A DNA stretch of 22,830 bases, taken from positions 1 to 22,830 of the IMG/VR virus record IMGVR_UViG_3300025487_000054; one strand, written 5' to 3'. The DNA comes from a virus. Position numbers and translations under genes: made by a program. Position 1 is the first letter of the stretch. Each line of letters opens with the position of its first letter. Of this stretch, positions 2,808 through 18,562 are shown piece by piece. Below the pieces are notes generated by a model. That model worked only from the letters and a program-made list of their open reading frames with translations. It made no database searches and had not been told where the DNA came from.

Positions 2808-3305
2808 ATGGATCTCGGCGTATTTGGAAAGTTGATTGAAAATGTGGCACCCACTATCGCAACCGCTTTGGGCGGCCCAGTGGCCGGAATGGCCGTCAAG
2901 GCACTGTCTACGGCTCTCTTGGGTCACGGTGACGGGTCTGAAGACGACATTAGAAATGCGCTGGCAAATGCTACCCCTGACCAAATAACGGCCATCAAAA
3001 AAATCGATGCCGATTTTAAGGTGCAAATGAAGTCGTTGGACATTGATCTTGTGAAGATTGCAGCCGATGACCGCGCGAATGCACGCAATTATGCCATTCA
3101 AACACATGACTTGACCCCTCGCGCATTGGCAGTAGTCATTGTTGTTTGTTATGGCCTCGCTCAATATTTCTTGTTCACGCATGTCATTGACGCCTCAATG
3201 AGGGAATTGGTTGCCCGCGTTTTGGGGACGATTGATGGCGCCTTGATGCTTGTCCTTTCGTATTATTTTGGCAGCAGCCACCAACATTCTTCCAATGGAG
3301 AATAA
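2808..3305 (+). CDS. GTA-type 3-TM holin family protein
   Basis: This 165-residue protein resembles the holin family first described for release of gene transfer agents. It has an N-terminal hydrophobic, glycine-rich segment (about residues 13-39). A charged central region follows (ITAIKKIDADFKVQMKSLDI) leading into the family-typical DDRANAR at 87-93. Two clear membrane spans come next, at about 106-124 (ALAVVIVVCYGLAQYFLF) and 138-153 (VLGTIDGALMLVLSYY), then a short tail with YYFGSS. The expected role is timed permeabilisation of the inner membrane so that the downstream muramidase reaches the peptidoglycan. ATG 2808 is preferred to the out-of-frame ATG at 2803, and CGGGG about ten bases upstream can serve as ribosome binding site. 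The muramidase ATG follows its stop by one base. Confidence 0.85.
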   Translation: MDLGVFGKLIENVAPTIATALGGPVAGMAVKALSTALLGHGDGSEDDIRNALANATPDQITAIKKIDADFKVQMKSLDIDLVKIAADDRANARNYAIQTHDLTPRALAVVIVVCYGLAQYFLFTHVIDASMRELVARVLGTIDGALMLVLSYYFGSSHQHSSNGE

Positions 3306-3306
3306 A

Positions 3307-3900
3307 ATGAATTTTGTGGGTGAAGCCAAAAAGCTTGTGTCGGCTGACTTTATGACTGTTGCGGATGAATTGGATGTCGATAGCGCGGCCCTGCGGGCTG
3401 TGTTGACTGTTGAAACAGGCGGGAGTGGGTTTGATGCTGCGGGACGTCCTAAGGCGCTGTTTGAGCGTCATTACTTCTATAAATTCTTGGCTGACAGACC
3501 AGATATTCAGGCTGACGCCGTCGGGCGTGGTCTTGCGTACCCTAAGTGGGGAGAAAAGCCTTACCCTAAAAATTCTGACGGTGTTTACGCTGAAATTAGT
3601 GCTGCCTGCGACATCGATTTGGACGCGGCTCTGCGATCAACTTCGTGGGGTTTGGGCCAAATTATGGGCAATAACCATAAAATGGTGGGTTTTGATACAG
3701 CAGAAGATATGGTCAAAAACGCCATGGAGTCGGAACTGAACCAACTTCGGCAAATGGCGGCATTCATCAAGGCAGCGGGGTTGCTTGATGAACTTCAAAA
3801 TAAAAATTGGGCTGCATTTTCTAAGGGTTATAATGGCCCTCAATATGCACAAAACCAATATGACGTAAAATTGGCTGATGCGTACAACAAGTTTGCGTGA
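3307..3900 (+). CDS. endolysin, N-acetylmuramidase family
   Basis: This 197-residue protein belongs to the N-acetylmuramidase family formerly called DUF3380. Diagnostic stretches are AVLTVETGGSGFDAAGRPK (residues about 31-49, with candidate catalytic Glu36), LFERHYFYKFL, the WGLGQIMG block followed by an NH pair, and AAFSKGYNGPQYAQNQYDVK near the C-terminus. It should cleave the glycan strands of host peptidoglycan at lysis. The catalytic domain fills the protein, with no cell-wall-binding module and no signal peptide, so export would depend on the upstream holins. The frame is open from 3250, but ATG 3307 is chosen because GGAG at 3297-3300 lies ahead of it and it directly follows the holin stop. 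It is the last gene of the lysis block. Confidence 0.93.
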   Translation: MNFVGEAKKLVSADFMTVADELDVDSAALRAVLTVETGGSGFDAAGRPKALFERHYFYKFLADRPDIQADAVGRGLAYPKWGEKPYPKNSDGVYAEISAACDIDLDAALRSTSWGLGQIMGNNHKMVGFDTAEDMVKNAMESELNQLRQMAAFIKAAGLLDELQNKNWAAFSKGYNGPQYAQNQYDVKLADAYNKFA

Positions 3901-4655: not shown

Positions 4656-6941
4656 ATGCCCCACGCCGCCCTTAAATTGATACCTGGCGTTGATACACAA
4701 AAGACGCCCGCATTGAATGAAGTCGCTCTTTCGAAAACCAACTTGATTCGGTTTTTGCCTGACCGGTCAGGCCTTGGTTTGCCACAAAAATTGGGCGGTT
4801 GGACAAGATATTACCCCAACACAATTGCGTCGCCAGTCCGCAACATGAAGGCTTGGCAAGACTTGAATGGTGTGCAACGTCTTGCTGTTGGAGCCGAATT
4901 ATCTTTGTCTGTTATTTATAACGGCATCAACCAAGACATTACGCCAAAACAAACTATTTATGTTTTGATTCCACCGTTTACGACAACGTCCGGATCGACC
5001 GCAATCTCAATGAAAATTAACTCAAGTCTTGCAAACACTTACAGCTATATTTATTATGTGACGCCTGTATCTGTCGGCGGTGCAAAACTTTTCGGTGCCT
5101 ATACAATTGACAATGTCATTGACGCCAATGACTTCCAAGTCAATGCCGAGACGCCCGCAACATATACAAACGTGCAAACTGCCACGATCAGCAATGCGTC
5201 GCCTGCGGTTATTACAGTTGCCGCAGCGCCAGCTAGCGGCACGGTCGTTAAATTTACAACGACTGGCACATTGCCGACTGGCATAACGGCTGGAACAACT
5301 TATTTTGTCCGCAATCTAACATCGACGACGTTCAACATTTCTTTGACGCCAAGTGGGTCATTGATCAATACGTCGTCTGCCGGATCCGGCACACACACTG
5401 CCACGTTCCCTGGCCAAGTTGCATATTATCAAACATCAATTGGTTTGCCGACGATAACCGTAACATTTCCGAATCACGGCCAAGTTGTGGGCGCGCAATT
5501 GGCCGTCAATCCCGCGACGACCGTTGGCGGCGTAACGCTGACCGGAACATACACTGTGGTTTCGGTTGTCAATTCAAACACATTCACTTTTACGGCTTCA
5601 AACACTGCCACATCAACGGCTGGAGCCTTTGAAAACAACGGTTACGTTGAAGCCATTATTTATTATGCCACCGTCCCTCAGCCTGCTGGTTCTGGTTATG
5701 GTGTCGGTGGTTATGGCGTAGGCGGTTATGGCACCGGCTCTGGCATCACGCCGACCGCAGGAACGCCCATTACGGCCACTGATTGGACTTTGGACAATTG
5801 GGGCGAATATTTGTTGGCTTGCCCCACAGGCGGCCCCATTTACGTTTGGCAACCTTATGGTGTCATTCAAAATGCTCAAATCATTGACAATGGCCCCTTG
5901 GCCAATACGGGCATGTTTGTCGCCATGCCGCAACGTCAGGTCATTGCTTATGGCTCTACCGACACAGGCCAGTTGGATCCCCTTCTTGTTCGCTGGAGTG
6001 ATGTCGAAGATTATACGGTATGGACTGCGACAGCGACAAATCAAGCGGGCGAATATCGCATTCCGACAGGCAGTTTGATTGTTGGCGCCATACAATCAAA
6101 CCAACAAGGCTTGCTTTGGACAGATATTGACCTTTGGTCCATGCAATACATTGGATTTCCTGACGTTTATGGCTTTAACAAAGTCAAAACGGGGTGCGGT
6201 TTGTATGCGCGCGGTGCTGCGGCCAATTTGGGCGGCGTGACCTATTGGATGAGCCAAAAACAATTTTTCAGTTATTCTGGCGGCGACCCCAATACAATTC
6301 CGTGCCCTGTGTGGGACGTTGTATTTCAAAACCTCAATCAAGGCACAGATGCAAACGGATTGCCGTATACGAATCGCATTCGTTGCGCGACAAATGCTCA
6401 ATTTAACGAAGTGGCTTGGTATTACCCATCTGTTGCAGGTAATGGCGAAGTGGACAGTTACGTCAAATTTAACACTGTCTTGCAGCAGTGGGATTACGGT
6501 TCTTTGTCCCGCAGCGCGTGGGTTGACCAATCTGTTTCTGGGCCGCCGATTGGTGCTGATCCATCGACTGGTTACATTTATCAGCACGAAATAACAAATG
6601 ACGCCGACGGGCAGGCCATGTTGTCCAGCTTCCAAACCGGCTATTTTGAAGTGTCTGAGGCAGATAATTTGGTATTTCTTGACCAAGTTTGGCCTGACAT
6701 GAAATGGGGGCAATATAGCCAACCCCAAAATGCGACTGTTGAAATTACGTTCTACTCGACCAATTACCCAGGCGATACGCCAATAGCGTATGGCCCGTAT
6801 AACATGACGCAGGCGGTTGAATATATCAGCACGCGGATTAGGGGTCGTTTGATTGCCATTAAGGTCTCCAGCAATGACGTTGGGACATTTTGGCGTTTGG
6901 GTGACATCCGCTATCGCTTTCAACCAGATGGACGGTTCTGA
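4656..6941 (+). CDS. tail nozzle / DNA stabilization protein (T7 gp12, P22 gp10-like)
   Basis: This 761-residue protein begins with LIPGVDTQKTPALNEVALS and KTNLIRFL, then LGGWTRYYPN: the characteristic start of podovirus nozzle/stabilization proteins. Residues about 110-345 are an insertion of beta-rich modules, one with ATISNASPAVITV through GTTYFVRNLTSTTFNISL and another with GVTLTGTYTVVSVVNSNTFTF. A glycine/tyrosine stretch (GYGVGGYGVGGYGTGSG, about 347-363) then leads into the propeller-like core: WTLDNWGEYLLACP, YVWQPYG and WSDVEDYTVWTATATNQAGE. The C-terminus ends in WRLGDIRYRFQPDGRF. It should form the hexameric tube that closes and opens the DNA exit channel. The inserted modules may decorate the outside of the tail. 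Its TGA overlaps the next ATG by one base. Confidence 0.85.
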   Translation: MPHAALKLIPGVDTQKTPALNEVALSKTNLIRFLPDRSGLGLPQKLGGWTRYYPNTIASPVRNMKAWQDLNGVQRLAVGAELSLSVIYNGINQDITPKQTIYVLIPPFTTTSGSTAISMKINSSLANTYSYIYYVTPVSVGGAKLFGAYTIDNVIDANDFQVNAETPATYTNVQTATISNASPAVITVAAAPASGTVVKFTTTGTLPTGITAGTTYFVRNLTSTTFNISLTPSGSLINTSSAGSGTHTATFPGQVAYYQTSIGLPTITVTFPNHGQVVGAQLAVNPATTVGGVTLTGTYTVVSVVNSNTFTFTASNTATSTAGAFENNGYVEAIIYYATVPQPAGSGYGVGGYGVGGYGTGSGITPTAGTPITATDWTLDNWGEYLLACPTGGPIYVWQPYGVIQNAQIIDNGPLANTGMFVAMPQRQVIAYGSTDTGQLDPLLVRWSDVEDYTVWTATATNQAGEYRIPTGSLIVGAIQSNQQGLLWTDIDLWSMQYIGFPDVYGFNKVKTGCGLYARGAAANLGGVTYWMSQKQFFSYSGGDPNTIPCPVWDVVFQNLNQGTDANGLPYTNRIRCATNAQFNEVAWYYPSVAGNGEVDSYVKFNTVLQQWDYGSLSRSAWVDQSVSGPPIGADPSTGYIYQHEITNDADGQAMLSSFQTGYFEVSEADNLVFLDQVWPDMKWGQYSQPQNATVEITFYSTNYPGDTPIAYGPYNMTQAVEYISTRIRGRLIAIKVSSNDVGTFWRLGDIRYRFQPDGRF

Positions 6942-7292: not shown

Positions 7293-8636
7293 ATGCCGCT
7301 GAAAAAAGGCAAAAGCAATAAAAAAATTAGCGCCAACATTTCAGAGTTGGTTGAAACAGGCCACTCGCATGATCAGGCAGTGGCGGCGGCCCTTAATGTG
7401 GCGCGCCGTGCAAAACGTGAAGTTGGCGGACCTTTATGGGGTTCAACAACAATAAAACCTGCTTGGGCAATGGACAATTTTAACCCTGAAATTACAGATC
7501 CAGAGTTGTTGGCAAAACGTAAACGCTCTCAAGATCTTTTGGCCATTTCGCAAGGGCGTTTTTTGGACGCACAAGAACAGTCTCGTTCACCCATGGTTGG
7601 GTCAGTTCCCACGCCATCCCAAGATGATGCGGATGAATCCGCTTTTTGGCGTGAACGCGCCATTCAAAATGCTCTTCAAAACGCAACGACCGATGACTCA
7701 TTATATACATCACCACAGGCTCTCAAACCTAATCCGACGCAAACCAGCGGCAGAGGTACTCCAATGCCTGTTGCACGCCCACAGGCGGCGCAAACGCCTA
7801 GTCAAGTTTATTGGCTTGATCGCGGTGATGGCAGCCCGCTTGTGCCAATGGGTGGTGCACTGCCCAAAGGGATGCAAGCCGGAGCGCAGCCAGGCGGCGG
7901 GTTTATTTCTGCCGTCAATGCTCCGACAAAGTCATTGTGGTCTGACCTAAAAAGTGTTTTTGCCAGCAAGCCGCAAACACAGCCCCAAGCACAGCCTCAA
8001 GTGGCGGCTCCGGTTCCGGCAAAACCAGAACAAACTATTGATTACGCGGCCAAAAAGCCGGCCGAAGTGCCTGATCAATACAAAAATTGGCCTGATCGGC
8101 AGCCTGATCTGGTTGCGACAGAACCGACCGACGGCATGGCAGACGGCGGTATGCTTAAAGGTGGGTTCCACCCTCCTCACACGCCTAAATTGTTTCATGG
8201 CCCCATTCACAGCCCTGTTGCCGGCCGCACCGACCACTTGCCTATGCACGTCGCATCCGGCTCCTACGTCATCCCTGCCGATATTATTTCGTCAATGGGT
8301 GAAGGCAATACCATGGCCGGCTTTAAAGCGGCGCGAAAGATCTTCACGAGGCCGATGTCTTTTTCCGGCATGCCATATGGCTCAGGATCTCATCCTTATG
8401 GTGAAAGTGGATTGCCATATGGTGCTCAATCGGTCGGTCACGCTCATGGCGGCGCAACAGGCGCAGTCCCTGTCGTCGTTGCCGGTGGGGAGTATGTTAT
8501 TCATCCCGACGATGTGGTACACATCGGTCGAGGTGACTTGGAGCGTGGCCATAAAATCTTGGATTCGTTTGTAAAAAAACAACGCGCCAAGACAATTAAC
8601 ACGTTGCAAAAATTGCCTGGTCCTAAGAAAGATTGA
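7293..8636 (+). CDS. virion-associated protein with duplicated YVIP modules
   Basis: This 447-residue protein has three parts. Residues 1-45 form a basic helical module (MPLKKGKSNKKISANISELV, then HDQAVAAALNVARRAKRE) that also exists as a short stand-alone phage protein. Residues about 46-310 are low-complexity, rich in Gln, Pro and Ala. The C-terminal part carries two related modules: HVASGSYVIPADIISSMGEG (from residue 319) and VVAGGEYVIHPDDVVHIGRG (from about 395). Each is followed by a helix (NTMAGFKAARKIF and LERGHKILDSFVKK). The duplicated GxYVIPaDii pattern recurs in ejected or scaffold-like virion proteins of environmental phages. Function is unknown; a minor structural or ejection role fits its place between the nozzle and the giant proteins. 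GAGGA ahead of ATG 7293 supports the start. Confidence 0.6.
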   Translation: MPLKKGKSNKKISANISELVETGHSHDQAVAAALNVARRAKREVGGPLWGSTTIKPAWAMDNFNPEITDPELLAKRKRSQDLLAISQGRFLDAQEQSRSPMVGSVPTPSQDDADESAFWRERAIQNALQNATTDDSLYTSPQALKPNPTQTSGRGTPMPVARPQAAQTPSQVYWLDRGDGSPLVPMGGALPKGMQAGAQPGGGFISAVNAPTKSLWSDLKSVFASKPQTQPQAQPQVAAPVPAKPEQTIDYAAKKPAEVPDQYKNWPDRQPDLVATEPTDGMADGGMLKGGFHPPHTPKLFHGPIHSPVAGRTDHLPMHVASGSYVIPADIISSMGEGNTMAGFKAARKIFTRPMSFSGMPYGSGSHPYGESGLPYGAQSVGHAHGGATGAVPVVVAGGEYVIHPDDVVHIGRGDLERGHKILDSFVKKQRAKTINTLQKLPGPKKD

Positions 8637-8647
8637 GGGGTTTTTCT

Positions 8648-9142
8648 ATGACTGACGAATTGCAAATTCGGATTGGAGTGCCTGAAGACATCGACGAAAT
8701 GATGGAATTGTCAGCGTCGGCGTGTGATGAAAACGGGTTTACAAACCCAAATCCAGCAAAGATTTTGCACGAAATTTGGCCAGCCTTGAACCGTGATCAC
8801 GGGTTGGTTGGCATCATAGGTAAGGCTGGCGGAAAGGCAGAGGGTGCCGTTCTTCTCAGAATTATCTCGACGTGGTATTCTGACGATCTGGTTTTGGAAG
8901 AACGGGCAATTTTTATTCACCCAGACTTTCGAAGCGCCAAGGGCGGACGTGCTCGCAAACTTTGCGAGTTTTCAAAGCAAGTGGCGGACGGATTGGGCAT
9001 ACCTTTAATGATTGGCGTTTTGTCCAACCATCGGACAGAGGCCAAAGTGAAACTTTACGAGCGGGCTTTTGGTGCCCCTGCAGGTGCGTTTTTCCTGTAT
9101 GGCGCCAAGACCGGCGGTAAGCCAATGATTATGGAGCACTGA
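8648..9142 (+). CDS. GNAT-family acetyltransferase-like protein
   Basis: This 164-residue protein has the order of a GNAT fold. An N-terminal RIGVPEDIDEMMELSASA block is followed by the central strands AEGAVLLRIISTWYSDDLVL, then motif A (AIFIHPDFRSAKGGRARKLC, about residues 88-107) and the strand LGIPLMIGVL. It ends with NHRTEAKVKLYERAFGAPAG and FFLYGAK. The acetyl-CoA pyrophosphate loop, normally Q/R-x-x-G-x-G/A, is degenerate here (RSAKGGRA). The frame is open from a TTG at 8633, but ATG 8648 is chosen because GAGGGG lies seven bases ahead. The same family recurs in the virion operons of environmental phages. The substrate is unknown and may be a virion or host protein. It sits directly upstream of the giant virion protein, one base before its start. 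Confidence 0.75.
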   Translation: MTDELQIRIGVPEDIDEMMELSASACDENGFTNPNPAKILHEIWPALNRDHGLVGIIGKAGGKAEGAVLLRIISTWYSDDLVLEERAIFIHPDFRSAKGGRARKLCEFSKQVADGLGIPLMIGVLSNHRTEAKVKLYERAFGAPAGAFFLYGAKTGGKPMIMEH

Positions 9143-9143
9143 C

Positions 9144-12100
9144 ATGGGTGGCGGCAAGAGCGGCACTTCACAATCGACTGTGTCAATCCCACCAGAGGTT
9201 CTTGCGAGGTATAACGCAGTCAACGCGACCGCCGAAAATGTCGCAAAACAGCCATTTCAGGCATATTCGACCGATCCGAATGCTTTTGTCGCGCCCGTTA
9301 ATCCGGTGCAGGCATCTGGCATCAATACCATTTACAATGCTCAAAATGCCGCACAACCGTGGTACGGAGCCGCTGGTCAGGCATATGCTCAAGGCGCACA
9401 AGCCGCTCAACCTTTTACCGACCTGTCTGCCGCAAATGTTCAAGGCGCACAACAGTCTGGCGCTGCCTTTAACCAAGCGGCCGCCAATCTTTATGGTGGC
9501 GCGCAGGCTGCAGCATCTCCTTTTATTCAAGGCGCTACTTCTGCCACAGGTCAAGCACTTTCCTCTGGCGTTCCTTTAACGCAACAAGCTTATAATCAAG
9601 GGGCCGGTTTGACCCAACAAGGTTTGGGCCAAATTGGTGGAATTGTCGGTCAAGGGCAAAATTATATTAACGCGGCTAACGGTAATTTGGCTGCGGGGCA
9701 AAATGCGGCCAATCCTTTATTGCAAAATGCCGCAATGGCTTATCAAGGCGGCCTTGGTGCTGCCATGCCTTTTGACCTTGCTGGCGCTCAAGCCGTTAAT
9801 GCACAGCAAATTGGTGGCCGACAAATTAACCAATTTATGAACCCGTATATGAACCAAGTCATAGGCGGTACATTGGCTCCATTGCAACAACAGCAGGCAA
9901 TGGACCGTCAATCTCAATTAAGCAATCAAATACGGTCGGGTGCTTTTGGAGGCAATCGCGCGGCAATTTCTAGCGATGTTTTAAAAGGCCAACAAGACAT
10001 TGCAACAGGCAATGTTGTCGGCAACTTGCTCAATCAAGGTTACGGACAAGCTTTGTCTGCTGCGGAACAACAGCAGGGCGTTAATTTGGCCGCACAGCAG
10101 GCCAATCGTGCTGCGCTGCAACAAACAGGCCAAAATATTTACGGTCAAATGACTGGCACAGGCCAGCAACAAGCTGCCCTTGGCAATCAACTTTTTGGTA
10201 TGGGAAATACGGCCGCAGGCACATTGGCAAGCCTTGGTCAGCAAGGGTACCAACAGGGCATGGGCGGAGTGCAACAAGGCCTTGCAGGCGCTCAACAATT
10301 GTACAATATGGGCGCAGGTGCAGGACAGCAACTGTACAATCAGTATTCTGGTACAGGCCAGCAGTTGGGTAATCTTGGTCAACAAGTTTTTGGTCAACAG
10401 ACGGGTGTTGCCCAAGGCCTTGGCAATATAGGCCAACAGCAATTTGGTCAGGGCATGACGGCCGCGCAACAGCAGGCGGCTCTTGCCAATCAGTTGTTTG
10501 GTCAGGGCGTTACTGGCGCGCAGACACTTGGCTCTCTTGGTACAGGCGCACAAAACGCTGCAATCAGCGGCGGGCAGGCTGCATTGGCGGCTGGCACTGT
10601 TCCACAGCAGACGCAGCAGGCAGGTCTCAGCGCCCTTTACAATCAATTCCAGCAGCAGCAGGGTTACCCTTTCCAAGTCGCTCAATTCTTGGCAAACATT
10701 GCCGAAGGTACCGGCGCTTTGTCTGGATCCACCACAACAACAACGCAGCCAACGTCATTTTTCTCCGACGAGCGTCTTAAAGAAGACATTGAGCCAATTG
10801 GTGAAACCTATGACGGGCAGAAAATTATCAAATTCCGCTATAAAGGCGAAAAGGGTCCAAAACAAATTGGTTTGGTGGCTCAGGACGTTGAAAAACATCA
10901 CCCTGACGCCGTTGGCGAATCTCACGGGTATAAAACTGTCGATTACGACAAAGCGACACGCGAAGCGGCGCATCGTGGCCACTTTTATAAGGGCGGCCTT
11001 GTTCCCTCGTCGGAAGGCGGTGTTGTCCATATGGGGCATGCCGGTGAAGGGTTTGCGGGAGGCGGAAGCACGTCCAGCATCGTTGACGCGCAAGATTTGA
11101 ATGCGCTCCTTGGCGCGCATCAACAAATGTATGCAGGCTTTAACCCTGCTGGCTTATACGGTGGCGCAAGTCCTGCCGGCCAAAAAGGCGGTATTGTTCC
11201 CGCCGCGTCTCTGGCAGTTCCCAAATTGGTAACAGCGTCAAATGTTGCCCCGCAGAACCAAGCGACATTGGGCAGCACATTGCATGGCGCCGTTCAAACG
11301 GGATCAGACATTACAAATGCTTATGGCATGGGTAAGTCAGCTTTATTTGGTTCACCTGCAACAAAAGACAGTGCTGCAACCAAAGGTGTCTTTGGAGATG
11401 CTGGCAGTTCAGACAAAGGTGGTTATCTTAGCGACGCCAAAAAGGCTCTTGGGTTTACTGACAGTGCTGCCCGTGGCGGCGTGATCCCATTTCATCGTGG
11501 GACCGGCGGAGAATTGCCTTATGGCGAAGATCAAGACGAAACCAAAGGCTACATGGGCACAATTTCTTATGAGCGCAAGTCGCCGCAGGAATTGAAGAAT
11601 GAACAAGACGCCCAGCGCCAGGGCAAATTGCCGCAACAATCACAAAGCGGTTTGGGCAGTGCAATCGGTGCAGCAAAAGACATTTATGGCGCAGGTAAAT
11701 TAGGTAAATCCGCACTTGAAGGCGCAAAAGGTTTGATGGGTGCTGACAAAATTGGATCGGCCACCATGTCAGGCGTTACTGACGCCGCTCAAGTTGGTCC
11801 TTTTATGTCAGAAGCGCCTGCCGGTATTGCTGGCGCGATTGTTCCGGCTGAAGCTGCAGTTGCCGCTCCTGCTGCCGAGGCTGCAGGTGGTGCTGGATTG
11901 TTGGGCGGACTTGGTTCGGCTATTGGGTCTGTTGGCGAAAGCATCGCAAGCTTCTTGCCATTCCTGTTGAAAGATGGCGGCGTTGTTCCGCGTGAACATC
12001 ACGCTGGCCCAGACAGCACCAATGGCCAAAGCAATGTCGTCGGTGATGGCGGCGGTGGCGGAGACGATGGTACTGTTGACACCGGCCGCGTGTCGCCAAA

Positions 12101-14105
12101 AGACCTTTATGACCATTTAGTTAGTCAGGGCGCTGATCCGCGCACTGCACTTGTATTGACCAGCGGTGCGGCAAGCGAGAGCGGATTTAATCCGACTGCA
12201 AAACATGATTACGATGAAAATGGTGTGGCGCAAGGTTACGGTTTGTTTGGCCACCAAGGCCCGCGCCTTGACGCCATGCGTCAACAGACAGGCACCCAAT
12301 ACCCTAATTGGAAACAGCAAGCATCCTTTGCATTGAGCGAAATGCAGGATCCGCGTTACCAAAAAATGATTGCTGCGGCCAATTCTCCGGAAGATTTGAC
12401 CAAGGTGCAAATGCACTTTGAACGTCCGAAGGGTTACACTCCAGACAATCCAGAAGCCGGACACAACTATACCGGCCGCGTGGCTGACACAAATGCCCTT
12501 ATGCCGTTGGTTCTCGGTCAGGACATTAATTGGGGTGCAACAACCAAAGCCGCTGCCGCTGGACGTCCTTCTCAAGGTGGATTAGGTGGTGCAGGCAGCG
12601 CAGGAACATCAACAGGCGGCGGCGGATTGCTCGACACGCTGACAAGCGAAAAATTCCTTATTCCGTTAGCTTCTGGCCTTGCTGGTATGGCATCATCGCC
12701 GAGCCGATACCTTGGCGCGGCCGTATTGCAGGGCTTAGGTGCTGGCGCTCAATCTTATCAGCAGATGAAACAGCAAGAGTCTGCCATTCAAAAACAACAG
12801 GCCGATATTCAGCGCGAAAGAGAGCAAAGCCAAATTGGATTTGGTCAATTGGCTGTTCAACAGCAACAGGCAAACATTGCCAGAACGGCAAAGGTTGCAG
12901 AACTTATGCAGCAATTGCGTACTCTTAACGCAACACGTCAAATTGCCGGCCTTGATCCTTTGGATACAACAGAATTTTTCAAATCTATGGGCGCTGGTGA
13001 TCTTGTTAAAGACGTTACGATGGCTCCCAAACAAGCGGGTGTTGGCGCTCCTGCACAACAACCTGCACAGGCTGCAGCGGCAGGTCAACCGGCACAAGCA
13101 GGTGCGGCTCCAGCCCAAACTGCGGTTGAGACTGCAAAATCGGTTACTGGCGCTCCTGCCCCGTCAACCGCAACTGTTACAACACAGGCAACACAAGGTG
13201 TTCCGAAGCCAGGAGATGACTTCTGGAAGGGTGTCGATCCGCAAGACAATCTTCACACCTTGGCAAAGAATTACCAAGTCGCCATGGCCGGCAATTTGCC
13301 ACAAGTGGGGCAACAGATTTTGGCTGACATCAATCGTGTCAAATCGTCTGGCATGGTTATGAAAGACGGCCAGATGGTGCCTATCCCAGGCTTTGCGGAA
13401 GCAGAAGCAGCTAAAAAAGCCATGATCGCAAAATCTGAAGCGGAAGTTAAAGAGCCATTTGAAACAAAGAAAATGGCTACTGAAAAAATGTATACGACGC
13501 AAAATGCGGCGCGTACTGCTGCGGCTAAAGAAGCTGATAATGCCAACGACATTATCTCTCAAACCAATGCCATGAAGGATTTGATGTTTGACCGCGAAAC
13601 CGGCAAGCCTCTCCTTAACACTGGCCCTATGGGTGAGAAGATCAACCAGTATGCAGCGTACTTTAAGCAAGCAGGCTTTAGCGATAATTTTATCAAAACG
13701 CTTGCCAATACCGATCCGTCAAATGCTGACTCTCTCCGTAAAATGCAAACGACGGCCGGTACAGAATTGGCTCGCATGGAATTGAATGGATCTCCTGTGC
13801 GCGTTTCAGAGTTTAATCGGTTCTTGCAATCAACACCTGGTGAACAAATGTTGCCTGGTGCGTTTAAGTGGATCATCGAAAATGTTCTGCAGCCTAAAGC
13901 CATGGCCCAGCAAAAGGTTTATGAGCGGGTTATGGATATGGATCCGGCTAAGGACAACATCGAAAAAGAGATTTACTTGGCTCGTAAAGAAAATCCTTGG
14001 TATCGGTATAATCCTCCTGCGCCACAACAGCAGGCCGCTCCTGCATTGTCGCCAGACCAAGCTAGGGAAGAATTGCAACGTCGTCGGTCCCAAGGGGTAC
14101 AGTAA
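9144..14105 (+). CDS. giant virion/ejection protein with internal S74-type chaperone motif and tail lysozyme domain
   Basis: This 1653-residue protein is modular. Residues 1-540 are Gln/Ala/Gly-rich with an 11-residue periodicity near 384-460. Residues about 541-610 match the intramolecular chaperone (peptidase S74) family: SDERLKEDIEPIGETYDGQK, then IGLVAQDVEKHHPDAVG, with Ser541 and Lys546 placed like the self-cleaving Ser-Lys pair. Four K/R-GG-x-V/I-P motifs follow (near 616, 681, 777 and 943). A glycine-zipper hydrophobic stretch lies at about 915-942. Residues about 983-1110 resemble the phage tail lysozyme domain (YDHLVSQGADPRTALVL, ASESGFNP with Glu1012, GYGLFGHQGPRLDAM). A hydrophobic segment (1165-1200), a Gln-rich coiled coil (to about 1250), an Ala/Pro/Gln linker and a helical C-terminus complete it. 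It probably degrades peptidoglycan and helps form the DNA path during ejection. GGAG precedes ATG 9144. Confidence 0.75.
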   Translation: MGGGKSGTSQSTVSIPPEVLARYNAVNATAENVAKQPFQAYSTDPNAFVAPVNPVQASGINTIYNAQNAAQPWYGAAGQAYAQGAQAAQPFTDLSAANVQGAQQSGAAFNQAAANLYGGAQAAASPFIQGATSATGQALSSGVPLTQQAYNQGAGLTQQGLGQIGGIVGQGQNYINAANGNLAAGQNAANPLLQNAAMAYQGGLGAAMPFDLAGAQAVNAQQIGGRQINQFMNPYMNQVIGGTLAPLQQQQAMDRQSQLSNQIRSGAFGGNRAAISSDVLKGQQDIATGNVVGNLLNQGYGQALSAAEQQQGVNLAAQQANRAALQQTGQNIYGQMTGTGQQQAALGNQLFGMGNTAAGTLASLGQQGYQQGMGGVQQGLAGAQQLYNMGAGAGQQLYNQYSGTGQQLGNLGQQVFGQQTGVAQGLGNIGQQQFGQGMTAAQQQAALANQLFGQGVTGAQTLGSLGTGAQNAAISGGQAALAAGTVPQQTQQAGLSALYNQFQQQQGYPFQVAQFLANIAEGTGALSGSTTTTTQPTSFFSDERLKEDIEPIGETYDGQKIIKFRYKGEKGPKQIGLVAQDVEKHHPDAVGESHGYKTVDYDKATREAAHRGHFYKGGLVPSSEGGVVHMGHAGEGFAGGGSTSSIVDAQDLNALLGAHQQMYAGFNPAGLYGGASPAGQKGGIVPAASLAVPKLVTASNVAPQNQATLGSTLHGAVQTGSDITNAYGMGKSALFGSPATKDSAATKGVFGDAGSSDKGGYLSDAKKALGFTDSAARGGVIPFHRGTGGELPYGEDQDETKGYMGTISYERKSPQELKNEQDAQRQGKLPQQSQSGLGSAIGAAKDIYGAGKLGKSALEGAKGLMGADKIGSATMSGVTDAAQVGPFMSEAPAGIAGAIVPAEAAVAAPAAEAAGGAGLLGGLGSAIGSVGESIASFLPFLLKDGGVVPREHHAGPDSTNGQSNVVGDGGGGGDDGTVDTGRVSPKDLYDHLVSQGADPRTALVLTSGAASESGFNPTAKHDYDENGVAQGYGLFGHQGPRLDAMRQQTGTQYPNWKQQASFALSEMQDPRYQKMIAAANSPEDLTKVQMHFERPKGYTPDNPEAGHNYTGRVADTNALMPLVLGQDINWGATTKAAAAGRPSQGGLGGAGSAGTSTGGGGLLDTLTSEKFLIPLASGLAGMASSPSRYLGAAVLQGLGAGAQSYQQMKQQESAIQKQQADIQREREQSQIGFGQLAVQQQQANIARTAKVAELMQQLRTLNATRQIAGLDPLDTTEFFKSMGAGDLVKDVTMAPKQAGVGAPAQQPAQAAAAGQPAQAGAAPAQTAVETAKSVTGAPAPSTATVTTQATQGVPKPGDDFWKGVDPQDNLHTLAKNYQVAMAGNLPQVGQQILADINRVKSSGMVMKDGQMVPIPGFAEAEAAKKAMIAKSEAEVKEPFETKKMATEKMYTTQNAARTAAAKEADNANDIISQTNAMKDLMFDRETGKPLLNTGPMGEKINQYAAYFKQAGFSDNFIKTLANTDPSNADSLRKMQTTAGTELARMELNGSPVRVSEFNRFLQSTPGEQMLPGAFKWIIENVLQPKAMAQQKVYERVMDMDPAKDNIEKEIYLARKENPWYRYNPPAPQQQAAPALSPDQAREELQRRRSQGVQ
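10293..10520 (+). repeat. 11-residue periodic coding region in the giant virion protein
   Basis: Residues about 384-460 of the giant protein show consecutive 11-residue units, clearest in QQLYNMGAGAG, then QQLYNQYSGTG, then QQLGNLGQQVF. Related blocks LGNQLFGMGNT and LANQLFGQGVT occur at either end. An 11-residue period favours a long amphipathic helix or right-handed coiled coil, rather than the 7-residue period of ordinary coiled coils. Confidence 0.65.
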
Positions 14106-17100
14106 TGCCTACCGATCTCAGCCAGTATTCTGATGCCGATCTTGAAAAAATAGCGTCCGGCAATCAGCCGGCTGCGGCTCCAGATCTTAGCCATTATTCC
14201 GACGCGGATTTGCACGCAATTGCCAATCAGGGCACGCTTTTGGGCAACGTGCTTGGTGGCACACCGACCGAACAAGCTATCCCCAAAGCCATGGGCACGG
14301 CGGCCATTAAAGGCGTTGCGTCCATTCCTAGTATGTGGGGTGGCCAAGGACAAGCCGACATGGTTGATTACCTTATGGCGCGTGCTCATAGCGCCATTTC
14401 AGGCGAACCGACCGAAGACGTCTTAAAAAGGTACAAACAGCGCCAAGACGAATTTAAAGAGAAGGCTGGCCCAATTGGGCGCGCCGCTGAAACAATAGCG
14501 CCTAGGAACGTCATCCCCAGCGGCGAACAACTTGCTGCACCAATTTTGGAACGCACCGGCGAATATAAGCCAGAAAGTCTGTTGGGCCAGATCGGCATGG
14601 CCGGCACTGAAATGGCCGCCAGCGGTTGGGGGCCAGGCATCGGTTCTAAAGTCGGAGCCTTTACCAAGCCAGGCACATTTAATGCTTTAAAAGAAATGGC
14701 CACAGACGCCTTGAAAATGGCTCCGGCTAACTTTGTAGCCGGCAGCACGGGTGAGGCTGTCACACAAGCTACAGGCGATCCTTTGGCCGGTCTTTTGACG
14801 GGCATGGTTGTCCCTCACGTTGGTGGGCAAGTCCTTGATGCTTTGGGCCGTCCTATCAAGAAATTTGCAGAACCAATGTTTGCCTCTAATCGCCCTGATA
14901 TGGCGGACAGTTTGTTTTATCAAATGTTCACCGACCCCAAGGCGGCTTATGAAAATTTAAAAAACCGCAATTATAATCTTTTGACCGGCGCCCCTGCATC
15001 GACGGCCGAATTGGCTATGGATCCTGGCGCATTGCTGGCTCAAAAGAATGCCGAAAACGCCAACAATGACTTTAAAGTTCGTATGGACCAGATCCGTAAC
15101 GAACAGAACCGTGTTCGCGTTGAGTCTTTAAAAAGCATGGCGCCGGAGGGTGCAGACGTTTTGTTGCCAAGCCGCACTTTGGCTGATCAGGCGGACACGA
15201 TCAACAAAGCGCATGACGACATTATCAACAACTTGGTCGATAATGCCGTTGATTTGCACAATGCCATGCCTGCTGGAACAAAGCCCGAAGACACTGGTTC
15301 TGCAATCCGTGAAATGACCAATAAGGCCATGATTGCGGCTCGTCAGGAACGCTCTAACTTGTACAAACAAGTAGATCCCGATCAGAAAATGTCGGTGATC
15401 ACTGAAAATGCAAGAAAGACTGGTGAAAATCTTAAAAACAGCATTGATCCGAATGTCAGCATTCCAAGTTCAAATGCTGCGCCTGTCATCGATATGGTGG
15501 CAAACCTTAACGACGTCACGCCATACCACAAACTGATTGACCTAGACTCGACCATTACAAACCAAATGGCGCAGGCAAAACGTGCTGGTGATTGGACAGG
15601 CCATGGGCAGTTGAGAACCTTAAAAGAAGCTGTTATGGCCGACATTCACAATGCCGTCGATAATCAGCATGCTTGGGAACAAGCCGCTGTTAAAGAAGGC
15701 AAATTGAACCCTGATGATACCATTGAGGCTCGGTTAAAACGGTATGGCGCAGGAACAGTCCAACAGCCAGGAGACGCCAGTACAGCTAGTGCAGCGAGTG
15801 CTGTCGGGACTGGAACCAATGGAGCGACCGGAGTTCCTCAAGAGGGCGTGGCAGAACGCGGTCCAAGCGGGCGACTTCCAAGTGCTGCAGCACCTCAAGG
15901 CGTACCGTCAGTGGAGCCAAAAACAGCCGACTTCACTCAAGACCTGAACAACTACACAATCCATTACCCGCATGGCCAATTGCAGGCTCGGTATGAAGTT
16001 GTTGATCTGCCGTCTTTGGTTACGTCGCATGGCCCAGATCTGAACGTCAATTCAAAGTACCCACAAGAATTGCAGCCGCGTGAACGGTCGATGGCTGGCT
16101 CGCAGCAACAGATCGAAGACATTGCCAATAAATTGAACCCTGAATTGCTTGGGCCTGCAAAGGAAGCCAATTCTGGTGCGCCTATCGTCGGCCCCGACAA
16201 TGTCGTTGAAAGCGGCAACGGCCGCACATTGGCGCTGTCAAAAGCCTATGATGGCCCCAACGGCCAAAAGTACCGCAATTGGCTTGAAAGCAACGGGTTT
16301 GATACAACAGGCATGGAAAAGCCTGTCTTGATTGCGCGGCGCACAAGCGAAATGACGCCGCAAGAGCGTGAATTGTTCACCAGATCAACAGCCTCCCAAA
16401 CTGGACTGGCATTATCTGCGTCTGAAAAAGCACGCGCTGACGCGAAAATGGCGGCAAACATCGACGAGCCGGTAAAATTTGGCAATGTTGGTAATCGACA
16501 AAATGCAGACTTTGTCCGCAAGTTCACTGAATTGTTGCCTGCATCTGAACGTGCAACGATTATGGACCGCAATGGCAATTTGTCTGCAGAAGGCGAACGT
16601 CGCATCGAGGCGGCCATTACGTCGCGGGCTTTTGGTGATTCGCCAATTGTCGAAAAGGCTTTTATGGACCGTGACAACGACATCAAGTCGATCACAAATT
16701 CCATGATTGACGCCGCTGGGCCTTGGCATGAAATGCGTAAGGCAGCCAGTGAAGGCCGCATTCCGACAGACGCTGACATTACCGACAATCTTCTTGAAGC
16801 AATCTCTCTTGTGTCGAAAGCAAAGAGCGAAGATTTGCCACGGGGTTTTTACCTTAACCAAGCAGATTTCTTCAGAAGCCCGTTGCAGGAACGTGTTCGC
16901 GCTATGCTTTCCCCAGATGGGAAAAACATCGGCAGCCAAAAGTTCATTGCCCAAGCATTGAATAATTATGCCGAAGAGGCGTTGAAAAACGTCAAAGAAG
17001 GCAGGTTGTTTGAAGGGGTATCAAGCACGGATGACGTGCTGAAAGCGGCCTTGGACAAGACTGCGCGTGAAAATGGCGTCAATTTAAGGGAAGTGGCACC

Positions 17101-18562
17101 TGGTCAACCGGCTGAAGCCGCTCCAGAAGCGCCCAAGAAATTGACAGAAGGGTCTGTGTTCAACCGCCCAAGTTTCGAGCAAGAGGCGGCCGACAAATTG
17201 GCTCAGGCCAAAAAGGCGCATGCTGAATTTGCCCAAACATATCGCCAAGAGCCGATCAAAGGCACACTGGCCGATTATGGCTATGCCGGTCAGTACAAGA
17301 TTCCGTCAGGCTCTGTGCCTGATCGTGCTTTTCCAGCCGGCTCAAGGGGCTTTGAAGCCACAAATGCTTTTTTAAAGGCCAACAATAATTCGCCAGAAAT
17401 AATCGCCAATTTGCAACAGACGGCGGTTAATAAATTGCGCGACATTATGGGCAGCGATCCTTTCCTGACGCAAAAGAAACTGGACACATGGAAGTCTCGG
17501 TTTGACAGTTCATTGCGTGCGATTGACCAAGCATCGCCTGGCTTCTTGAGCAAATTTGATGATTTGGCGGCTGCGACCGAAAGCCTGAACAGCGCCAAAA
17601 AAGCAAATATGGACCGCATTGATCTGGAAAAGAAAATGGCCGCCAATCAGATTATTGGCGCTCCGACTGCCGAAGAAATGCGTTCGCGTGTTGGATCTCT
17701 TTTGTCATCGACAGATGGCGCCACAAAGATCAAAGAGATTATGTCTCGCCTGGCTGGCAACCAAGACGCCATTGATGGATTACGTCGCGCAGCCACTGAA
17801 CACATGCTGGAACGGTTTAGCAATGCGTCGTTCTCCGGCGACGAGCGGACGTTGTCTGGCGCAAAATTCAACAAGTTTCTGACATCCAATGCAGACGCAT
17901 TAGAGGCAATGTATGGCAAAGAAGGCCTTGCAAATATGCGTCGCATCGGTGCGGATCTTGACCGTACACAGCAAGCTATGGACGCTGTGAAGGCCAGAAC
18001 GGGATCCGACACAGCGCAAAACCTGTTCTCTGAATTTGGCAAAATTATCCAATCTGGCCAGAAAGGTTCTTTGGGCTCTGTGTTTGCCATTGCTGGCATG
18101 GAGGCCTTTGACAAATTGGGTGTTCTGGGTGCTTTGGGCGTTGGCACAACGGCTGCGATTAAAAATGCCGTTGATCGCATGCGTGCCAGTGGCGTGAAAG
18201 ACGTTAATGATTTGGTTCTGCGTGGCTTGGAAGACCCATCCGTCGGCGCGGCCATGCTGCAACGCGCCATTGATAAGAACGGCAAGCCTGACGTCTCTGC
18301 CCTCAATCGCCTGGCATCGACCTTGACCAAAGGATCCCAGTACATGCAGGAAGAGGAACAGCGGCGTCGCGGCCGTGCGTCAGGCGGGCGCATAGAACGG
18401 TCAACGGGCGGCGGTGCTTTTGATCACGAGACAGAGGCCGACAAGCTTGTGCGGGCCGCAGAGCGGGCCAAGAACGACGTCAACAAGACGACAGAGCCGT
18501 TGCTGAATGTTGACGACAATACTATTGCGCGGGCTCTGGACGTGGCGCAGGCGGCAATATAA
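14105..18562 (+). CDS. large ejection-type virion protein with ddrB/ParB-like domain
   Basis: This 1485-residue protein opens with two copies of DLSxYSDADLxxIA (residues 4-17 and 27-40), a start typical of large internal phage proteins. A helical region follows with hydrophobic glycine-rich stretches (about 150-260) and long charged helices (300-500). Residues about 630-780 resemble the ddrB/ParB-like domain: YEVVDLPSLVTSHG, YPQELQPRERS, IEDIANKLNPELLG, APIVGPDNVVESGNGRTLAL (SGNGR at 703-707 is in the place of the ParB nucleotide-binding motif), then RELFTRSTASQTGLALSASE. A second helical region runs to about 1310, with a hydrophobic segment near 1320-1360. The C-terminus (SGGRIERSTGGG, HETEADKLVRAAERAK, PLLNVDDNTIARALDVAQAA) is a recurring end module of ejection proteins. 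The start shares one base with the preceding stop. The region 15744-15930 has foreign composition (separate entry). Confidence 0.75.
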   Translation: MPTDLSQYSDADLEKIASGNQPAAAPDLSHYSDADLHAIANQGTLLGNVLGGTPTEQAIPKAMGTAAIKGVASIPSMWGGQGQADMVDYLMARAHSAISGEPTEDVLKRYKQRQDEFKEKAGPIGRAAETIAPRNVIPSGEQLAAPILERTGEYKPESLLGQIGMAGTEMAASGWGPGIGSKVGAFTKPGTFNALKEMATDALKMAPANFVAGSTGEAVTQATGDPLAGLLTGMVVPHVGGQVLDALGRPIKKFAEPMFASNRPDMADSLFYQMFTDPKAAYENLKNRNYNLLTGAPASTAELAMDPGALLAQKNAENANNDFKVRMDQIRNEQNRVRVESLKSMAPEGADVLLPSRTLADQADTINKAHDDIINNLVDNAVDLHNAMPAGTKPEDTGSAIREMTNKAMIAARQERSNLYKQVDPDQKMSVITENARKTGENLKNSIDPNVSIPSSNAAPVIDMVANLNDVTPYHKLIDLDSTITNQMAQAKRAGDWTGHGQLRTLKEAVMADIHNAVDNQHAWEQAAVKEGKLNPDDTIEARLKRYGAGTVQQPGDASTASAASAVGTGTNGATGVPQEGVAERGPSGRLPSAAAPQGVPSVEPKTADFTQDLNNYTIHYPHGQLQARYEVVDLPSLVTSHGPDLNVNSKYPQELQPRERSMAGSQQQIEDIANKLNPELLGPAKEANSGAPIVGPDNVVESGNGRTLALSKAYDGPNGQKYRNWLESNGFDTTGMEKPVLIARRTSEMTPQERELFTRSTASQTGLALSASEKARADAKMAANIDEPVKFGNVGNRQNADFVRKFTELLPASERATIMDRNGNLSAEGERRIEAAITSRAFGDSPIVEKAFMDRDNDIKSITNSMIDAAGPWHEMRKAASEGRIPTDADITDNLLEAISLVSKAKSEDLPRGFYLNQADFFRSPLQERVRAMLSPDGKNIGSQKFIAQALNNYAEEALKNVKEGRLFEGVSSTDDVLKAALDKTARENGVNLREVAPGQPAEAAPEAPKKLTEGSVFNRPSFEQEAADKLAQAKKAHAEFAQTYRQEPIKGTLADYGYAGQYKIPSGSVPDRAFPAGSRGFEATNAFLKANNNSPEIIANLQQTAVNKLRDIMGSDPFLTQKKLDTWKSRFDSSLRAIDQASPGFLSKFDDLAAATESLNSAKKANMDRIDLEKKMAANQIIGAPTAEEMRSRVGSLLSSTDGATKIKEIMSRLAGNQDAIDGLRRAATEHMLERFSNASFSGDERTLSGAKFNKFLTSNADALEAMYGKEGLANMRRIGADLDRTQQAMDAVKARTGSDTAQNLFSEFGKIIQSGQKGSLGSVFAIAGMEAFDKLGVLGALGVGTTAAIKNAVDRMRASGVKDVNDLVLRGLEDPSVGAAMLQRAIDKNGKPDVSALNRLASTLTKGSQYMQEEEQRRRGRASGGRIERSTGGGAFDHETEADKLVRAAERAKNDVNKTTEPLLNVDDNTIARALDVAQAAI
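15744..15947 (+). other. compositionally foreign segment with a plausible +1-frame coding reading
   Basis: Inside the 1485-residue gene, the main frame here gives a low-complexity linker rich in Ala, Gly, Ser and Pro. The +1 frame, open from ATG 15744 to TGA 15947, gives a natural-looking helical peptide containing LVQRVLSGLEPMERPEFLKR and AWQNAVQAGDFQVLQHLKAY. My count over 15781-15900 is 74 G+C in 120 bases (62%). In the +1 frame 46 of the first 58 codons end in G or C, with many CTG, CAG, GTG and AAG, whereas the surrounding gene favours TTG and CAA. The likeliest reading is a fragment captured from a higher-GC gene and now translated out of its original frame. An overlapping gene is less likely, because no ribosome binding site is evident. 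Confidence 0.5.

Follow-up and report, generated by a model that had tools for sequence, protein, structure and literature searches.

The gene at 9144-14105 of the window, the 22,830-nt (22.8-kb) IMG/VR virus record analysed here (IMGVR_UViG_3300025487_000054), is very probably two neighbouring podovirus ejection-protein genes fused into one, judged by sequence comparison with relatives. The internal position of its Peptidase_S74 domain is explained, with equally high confidence, by fusion of neighbouring ejection genes, the first one bearing S74 as a detachable end. Residues 1-540 would be a helical first ejection protein in the position of T7 gp14 or P22 gp7. Residues 541-608 would be the short S74 that ends the first ejection protein in split relatives. 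Residues 609-1653 would be a second ejection protein that includes a peptidoglycan hydrolase, in this case Phage_lysozyme2. Fusion combined with S74 cutting before Ser541 is, with somewhat more belief than doubt, the best explanation as a whole.

The open reading frame runs from ATG to stop on the + strand and encodes 1653 aa. The features in and beside it are as follows.

8633..9142, + strand: acetyltransferase-like gene, directly upstream (phrog_1249 acetyltransferase, E 6e-8).
9144..10763, + strand: aa 1-540, Q/A/G-rich, predicted ejection-protein part in the gp14/IVPB-like position (phrog_6121; phrog_4287 matches of relatives; all alpha-helical AF2 model of relative L016).
10683..10763, + strand: aa 514-540, conserved landmark and linker QFLANIAEGTGALSGSTTTTTQPTSFF, abutting Ser541.
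Between 10763 and 10764, + strand: predicted cleavage site, before Ser541.
10764..10967, + strand: aa 541-608, short S74 domain with the partner Lys546 (PF13884; invariant S, D and K).
10968..12098, + strand: aa 609-985, Gly-rich linker region with repeated GG[LIV]xP motifs.
12099..12440, + strand: aa 986-1099, Phage_lysozyme2, exchangeable hydrolase cassette (PF18013; Hydrolase_2 or SLT at the corresponding region of relatives).
12441..14105, + strand: aa 1100-1653, C-terminal part of the predicted hydrolase/ejection half, gp15/IVPC-like position, including the stop codon.
14105..18562, + strand: next gene, 1485 aa, candidate for the third ejection-protein position (gp16/IVPD-like) by its place; ddrB-ParB domain at aa 625-746 (PF18763, E 3e-34).

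Peptidase_S74 (PF13884) is matched at aa 541-590 in the Pfam scan (E 3.3e-9; 37.3 bits, cut-off 22 bits). The segment SDERLKEDIEPIG begins with Ser541, and its Lys is residue 546. The first-pass annotation had claimed an S74 motif with this Ser/Lys pair and named an HMM search against Peptidase_S74 as the check; the search agrees, above cut-off. The tail-lysozyme domain that it placed downstream is likewise present as Phage_lysozyme2 (PF18013) at aa 986-1099 (E 5e-11, more exactly 5.3e-11; 43.3 bits, cut-off 28.2 bits). It is detected with the segment scanned alone and missed in the whole-protein scan. Glu1012, placed from the motif only, is the putative catalytic Glu of this domain. The N-terminal part, described earlier as Gln/Ala-rich, contains 18.5% Q and 17.4% A, and also 15.7% G. 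The fragment sizes proposed earlier, 540 and 1113 residues, are arithmetically right for a cut before Ser541, with predicted masses of 54.4 and 116.1 kDa (170 kDa for the uncut chain). The segment at aa 1400-1630 is conserved in L001, L005, L007, L014, L033 and L039. No family was found for the protein in the NCBIfam search.

The window protein matches phrog_6121 over aa 207-606. It does not match phrog_4287, 'DNA ejection protein', at E 0.01, and its membership there is by way of relatives: phrog_4287 matches the compact fused relative L016 at aa 1-329 (3e-17), the split protein P0005 and the S74-less L183. The first part is assigned to the T7 gp14/P22 gp7 position because of the gene order, these phrog_4287 matches and the helical model of L016. 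The order of acetyltransferase gene, S74 gene and 1485-aa gene is a placement matching the ejection operon of split podoviruses. An acetyl- or acyltransferase, like that at 8633-9142, is annotated before the S74 gene in L085, L086, L088 and L090. In the phiGT1 paper, the source of the phiGT1 gene naming, the acetyltransferase-type neighbour occupies the IVPA position and is P22 gp14-like (PMC10386132). A pore role may be ascribed to the first ejection protein from a review (PMC8954989).

Internal S74 is standard in this phage group. One scan gave 80 related viral loci, nearly all with the same order: an MGGGK..IPPEV-type start, Q/A-rich repeats of variable length, QFLANIAEGTGALSGSTTTT, short S74, Gly-rich linker and a long downstream part. 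In the broadened set S74 is internal in 91 unique fused members, from many metagenomes and phage record MW202675, and none of the fused members with the landmark ends after the first S74. A genome-contig scan with the window segment gave one MAG contig. The part up to the landmark ranges from about 240 to 965 aa across L074 and other fused relatives, apparently through repeat expansion. The cell-wall enzyme, located in the downstream part of several relatives, is exchanged between them, being Phage_lysozyme2, Hydrolase_2 or SLT transglycosylase (window 12099-12440; corresponding region of L003, L007 and L049). Seven fused relatives have no S74 at the corresponding place, and the chain is still fused; one of them, L255, is a 2459-aa chain that also contains an SLT hydrolase. 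On the tree, the distribution of S74 among fused relatives requires a minimum of 5 state changes. Long, evidently fused relatives in UniProt, from uncultured Caudovirales (e.g. A0A6J5LD05, 1487 aa), bear the label 'Intramolecular chaperone auto-processing domain containing protein', which is automatic. No published analysis of these entries was found.

A second S74 is present further downstream in 11 of the 91 fused members; such proteins would give three pieces if both copies cut. Both internal copies carry SDxxxK in L017, L049, L055, L057, L059, L061, L064, L065 and L070. In the window protein the hydrophobic GSVGESIASFLPFLLKDGG at aa 926-945 (11919-11978) resembles the segment directly before the second S74 of L055, L056 and L064 (..LPFLALLSDRRMK..). 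The window protein thus apparently has a second S74 site, near aa 926-945, that is empty, and S74 appears to behave as a cassette inserted after LPFL-type hydrophobic segments.

In at least a dozen podoviruses, isolated and metagenomic, a short S74 ends a gene of its own, of about 270-470 aa (mostly 330-470), and several of these genes match 'DNA ejection protein'. The split S74 gene occurs in EBPR podovirus 2, Bradyrhizobium phage ppBeUSDA76-2, Ochrobactrum phage OH, Rhizobium phage RHph_N2, Sinorhizobium phage phiM5, Sulfitobacter phages pCB2047-C, NYA-2014a and phiGT1, Pseudomonas phage PAE2, Mae-JY35 and others. Where annotated, the gene after it encodes a peptidoglycan hydrolase, a tape-measure or an internal virion protein. 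For phiM5, the annotation records detection in the virion for the products of both the S74 gene and the next gene. The fetched loci contain 91 S74-ended genes followed by another gene, and the next start is mostly 0, -3, 1 or 2 nt from the S74-gene end. Complete downstream genes of split pairs have a median of 608 aa. Seven separate downstream genes match the C-terminal parts of four fused relatives (family-wide phmmer, E 1e-31 to 1e-15), in the hydrolase region only. No direct match to a split gene was observed for the window's own C-terminal part, the matches being limited to four fused relatives. Profile comparison of fused C-terminal parts with the single split proteins P0003 and P0006 gave no match. 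Pfam detected a hydrolase in 1 of 10 downstream genes of split phages (L094, SLT); the other hydrolase labels are from GenBank annotation. The first-pass annotation had S74 lying between two functionally different virion-type parts and set this position apart from the usual C-terminal one. The two parts are borne out by other phages, in which each has a gene of its own, the two lying side by side with the boundary just after S74; the arrangement is not a lone oddity, given the 91 relatives and the precedent of MyRF (myelin regulatory factor).

Homologues of the ppBeUSDA76-2 protein are of two kinds. Eleven have S74, with 282-311 aa before Ser, and 23 lack it, ending at 284-305 aa and being 57-79% identical over residues 1-282. 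Homologous downstream genes are present in most of both kinds. S74 presence or absence has changed at least 4 times on well supported branches of this family. The genes of the S74-less phages code directly for the product expected from cleavage, since their chains end where the S74 homologues have Ser; gain or loss of S74 at the domain edge would equally explain this end point.

The segment is a real but reduced S74, a version of about 65 residues, as judged by profile and alignment. A profile of 102 relatives matches PDB sequences over a range of E 3e-6 to 9e-4: MyRF 7dc3 (3e-6), long tail fibre 6f45 (1e-5) and the GA-1 neck appendage 3gud (2.5e-4), the last match beginning exactly at Ser. 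In 87 split homologues the distance from Ser to the chain end is 64-102 aa (median 70). By this chain length a C-terminal triple coiled coil is absent from the split homologues; the last helix of the L016 model has 5 residues. The AF2 model of L016 is all-helical up to S74, and its S74 part has pLDDT 85-92. No triple beta-helix stalk was found upstream of S74 in this monomer model of a relative of the window protein, which shows a helical part followed by a low-confidence linker. The first model, of the window segment, has mean pLDDT 54. Its top Foldseek matches are three MyRF chains, weak at E 0.12, and the VIA match to MyRF is also weak (Z 3.2, rmsd 2.4, 59 residues). Fold search of the full L016 model against the PDB gave generic helical matches only, with no S74 and no T7 gp14; the absence of S74 says nothing against the domain, because helices fill the match list.

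The catalytic pair is strictly conserved. SDxxxK is present in 189 of 189 S74 domains and, in the broadened set, in all 91 fused ones. A total of 316 S74 domains, collected by profile with the motif not used for selection, were reduced to 90 clusters below 70% identity. Ser, Asp, Lys and one Ala are the sole invariant columns in all 90, where the median column has its top residue at 49%. In MyRF, Ser587 and Lys592 correspond to S911 and K916 of endosialidase NF and are indispensable for cleavage; S587A and K592A abolish it, while the S587A protein, although uncleavable, retained its fold and gave crystals (PMC8326128). Strict retention of Ser and Lys argues for chemistry rather than fold, because that MyRF mutant kept its fold. 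In MyRF the C-terminal triple helical coiled coil is the main driver of trimerisation, trimerisation is required for cleavage, and the trimerising helix extends to residue 705, which lies 118 residues beyond Ser587 (PMC8326128). Canonical trimer-dependent cleavage is not to be assumed here, because the C-terminal trimerisation helix is missing and helices are predicted for the upstream part.

Self-cleavage of the window protein by Ser541-Lys546 into the 54.4- and 116.1-kDa parts is a plausible prediction, slightly favoured. The S74 module would fold at the chain junction, and the pair would cut before Ser541 during assembly, yielding a 540-aa ejection protein and a 1113-aa S74-hydrolase protein. 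Left uncut, the chain of 170 kDa would be packed and ejected in one piece, presumably as in relatives without S74. The same fusion may instead carry an S74 that does not cut but acts in folding or oligomerisation, or caps the preceding hydrophobic segment, the whole chain being packed and ejected. This is given rather less than an even chance. It agrees with the lack of both the C-terminal trimerisation helix and the triple beta-helix, with the S74-less relatives that stay fused (the SLT-bearing L255 among them), and with a module that is optional in split and fused forms alike. Invariance of Ser and Lys in every cluster speaks against it, since a passive domain would be expected to drift, and in MyRF the two residues are, as far as reported, needed for nothing beyond cleavage. 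A membrane-cap role is just an idea, because the hydrophobic segment upstream of S74 is less pronounced at the first internal copy than it is in split genes. Splitting is not indispensable across the family, because the seven S74-less relatives remain fused; the fixed ratio of two virion parts suggested in the first-pass annotation does not therefore hold as a general requirement.

Two further explanations were weighed against fusion with cutting. That the protein is an ordinary tail spike or tail fibre, trimeric and assisted by an S74 chaperone, with the remainder an adhesin or tail lysin, is very unlikely. S74 is best known from fibres, and GenBank labels several homologues tail fibre, tailspike or 'tail fiber domain-containing protein'; however, the predicted structure is helical without beta-helix, relatives match the 'DNA ejection protein' profile, the gene sits between acetyltransferase and injection-protein genes, and ppBeUSDA76-2 has a separate conventional S74 fibre gene (P0008). 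A metagenomic virus record whose relatives include split pairs could raise the suspicion that an assembly error or a frameshift joined two genes into the long frame. This explanation is rejected, with next to no probability left to it: the fused form recurs in the 91 unique S74-bearing relatives, from many metagenomes and MW202675, none of which with the landmark ends after S74.

Fusion with cutting has partial counterparts among known systems. Canonical self-cleaving S74/ICA trimers share the SDxxxK pair and the above-cut-off profile match with the present domain. They have a C-terminal coiled coil and a triple beta-helix before the domain, whereas here the domain has about 65 aa and neither; here it is also borne by ejection proteins, and in the window protein it lies mid-chain. 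MyRF, the best sequence match of solved structure, likewise has an internal ICA domain between two functional halves. It keeps the trimerising helix, followed by a membrane anchor, and its cleavage is proven, whereas cleavage here is a prediction from sequence. T7 gp14/gp15/gp16 and P22 gp7/gp20/gp16 resemble the present genes in gene order, helical prediction and a hydrolase in the operon; their first and second ejection proteins are separate, whereas here they form one chain with S74 between. The T7 and P22 ejection proteins are not known to carry S74. phiGT1 gp17-gp18 and phiM5 27-28 have the same short S74 and the same kind of neighbours, but as two separate genes with S74 as the C-terminus of the first, where the window has one fused gene.

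The main known role of S74 domains is that of chaperone for trimeric fibres. Already known are the S74 domain family, ejection proteins, internal ICA domains (MyRF) and the automatic UniProt labels. Within its limited coverage, an open-literature search turned up no paper dealing with S74 in ejection proteins; no account was found of ejection proteins that carry a coil-less S74, or of such an S74 lying internally in the fused form. Here a shortened S74 with a strictly conserved catalytic pair is carried by ejection proteins of many podoviruses, repeatedly gained or lost, and internal in one fused group. Tentatively, the coil-free short S74 may cap the C-terminus of phage ejection proteins and then remove itself, its cutting being independent of the classical fibre trimer; fusion in one lineage would have made it the splitter of an ejection polyprotein, with a second S74 in some members giving three pieces. 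Phages with and without S74, split and fused, form a natural experiment on two questions: whether self-cleavage is possible in the absence of the known trimerisation helix, and whether ejection proteins are packaged by phages in polyprotein form.

Other genes of the window were also noted. The ddrB/DarB-like ParB-superfamily domain of the 14105-18562 product occurs in other phage proteins as well, among them one with the label DarB-like antirestriction. The gene at 4656-6941 encodes a 761-aa virion protein (phrog_3287) with a weak End_beta_barrel match at aa 266-322 (E 2e-4, below the Pfam cut-off). An endolysin-like gene is located at 3250-3900 (phrog_1224, E 5e-74). An 82-aa match to a tail-fibre N-terminus (phrog_1141) is located at 1916-2164, upstream of the adaptor gene.
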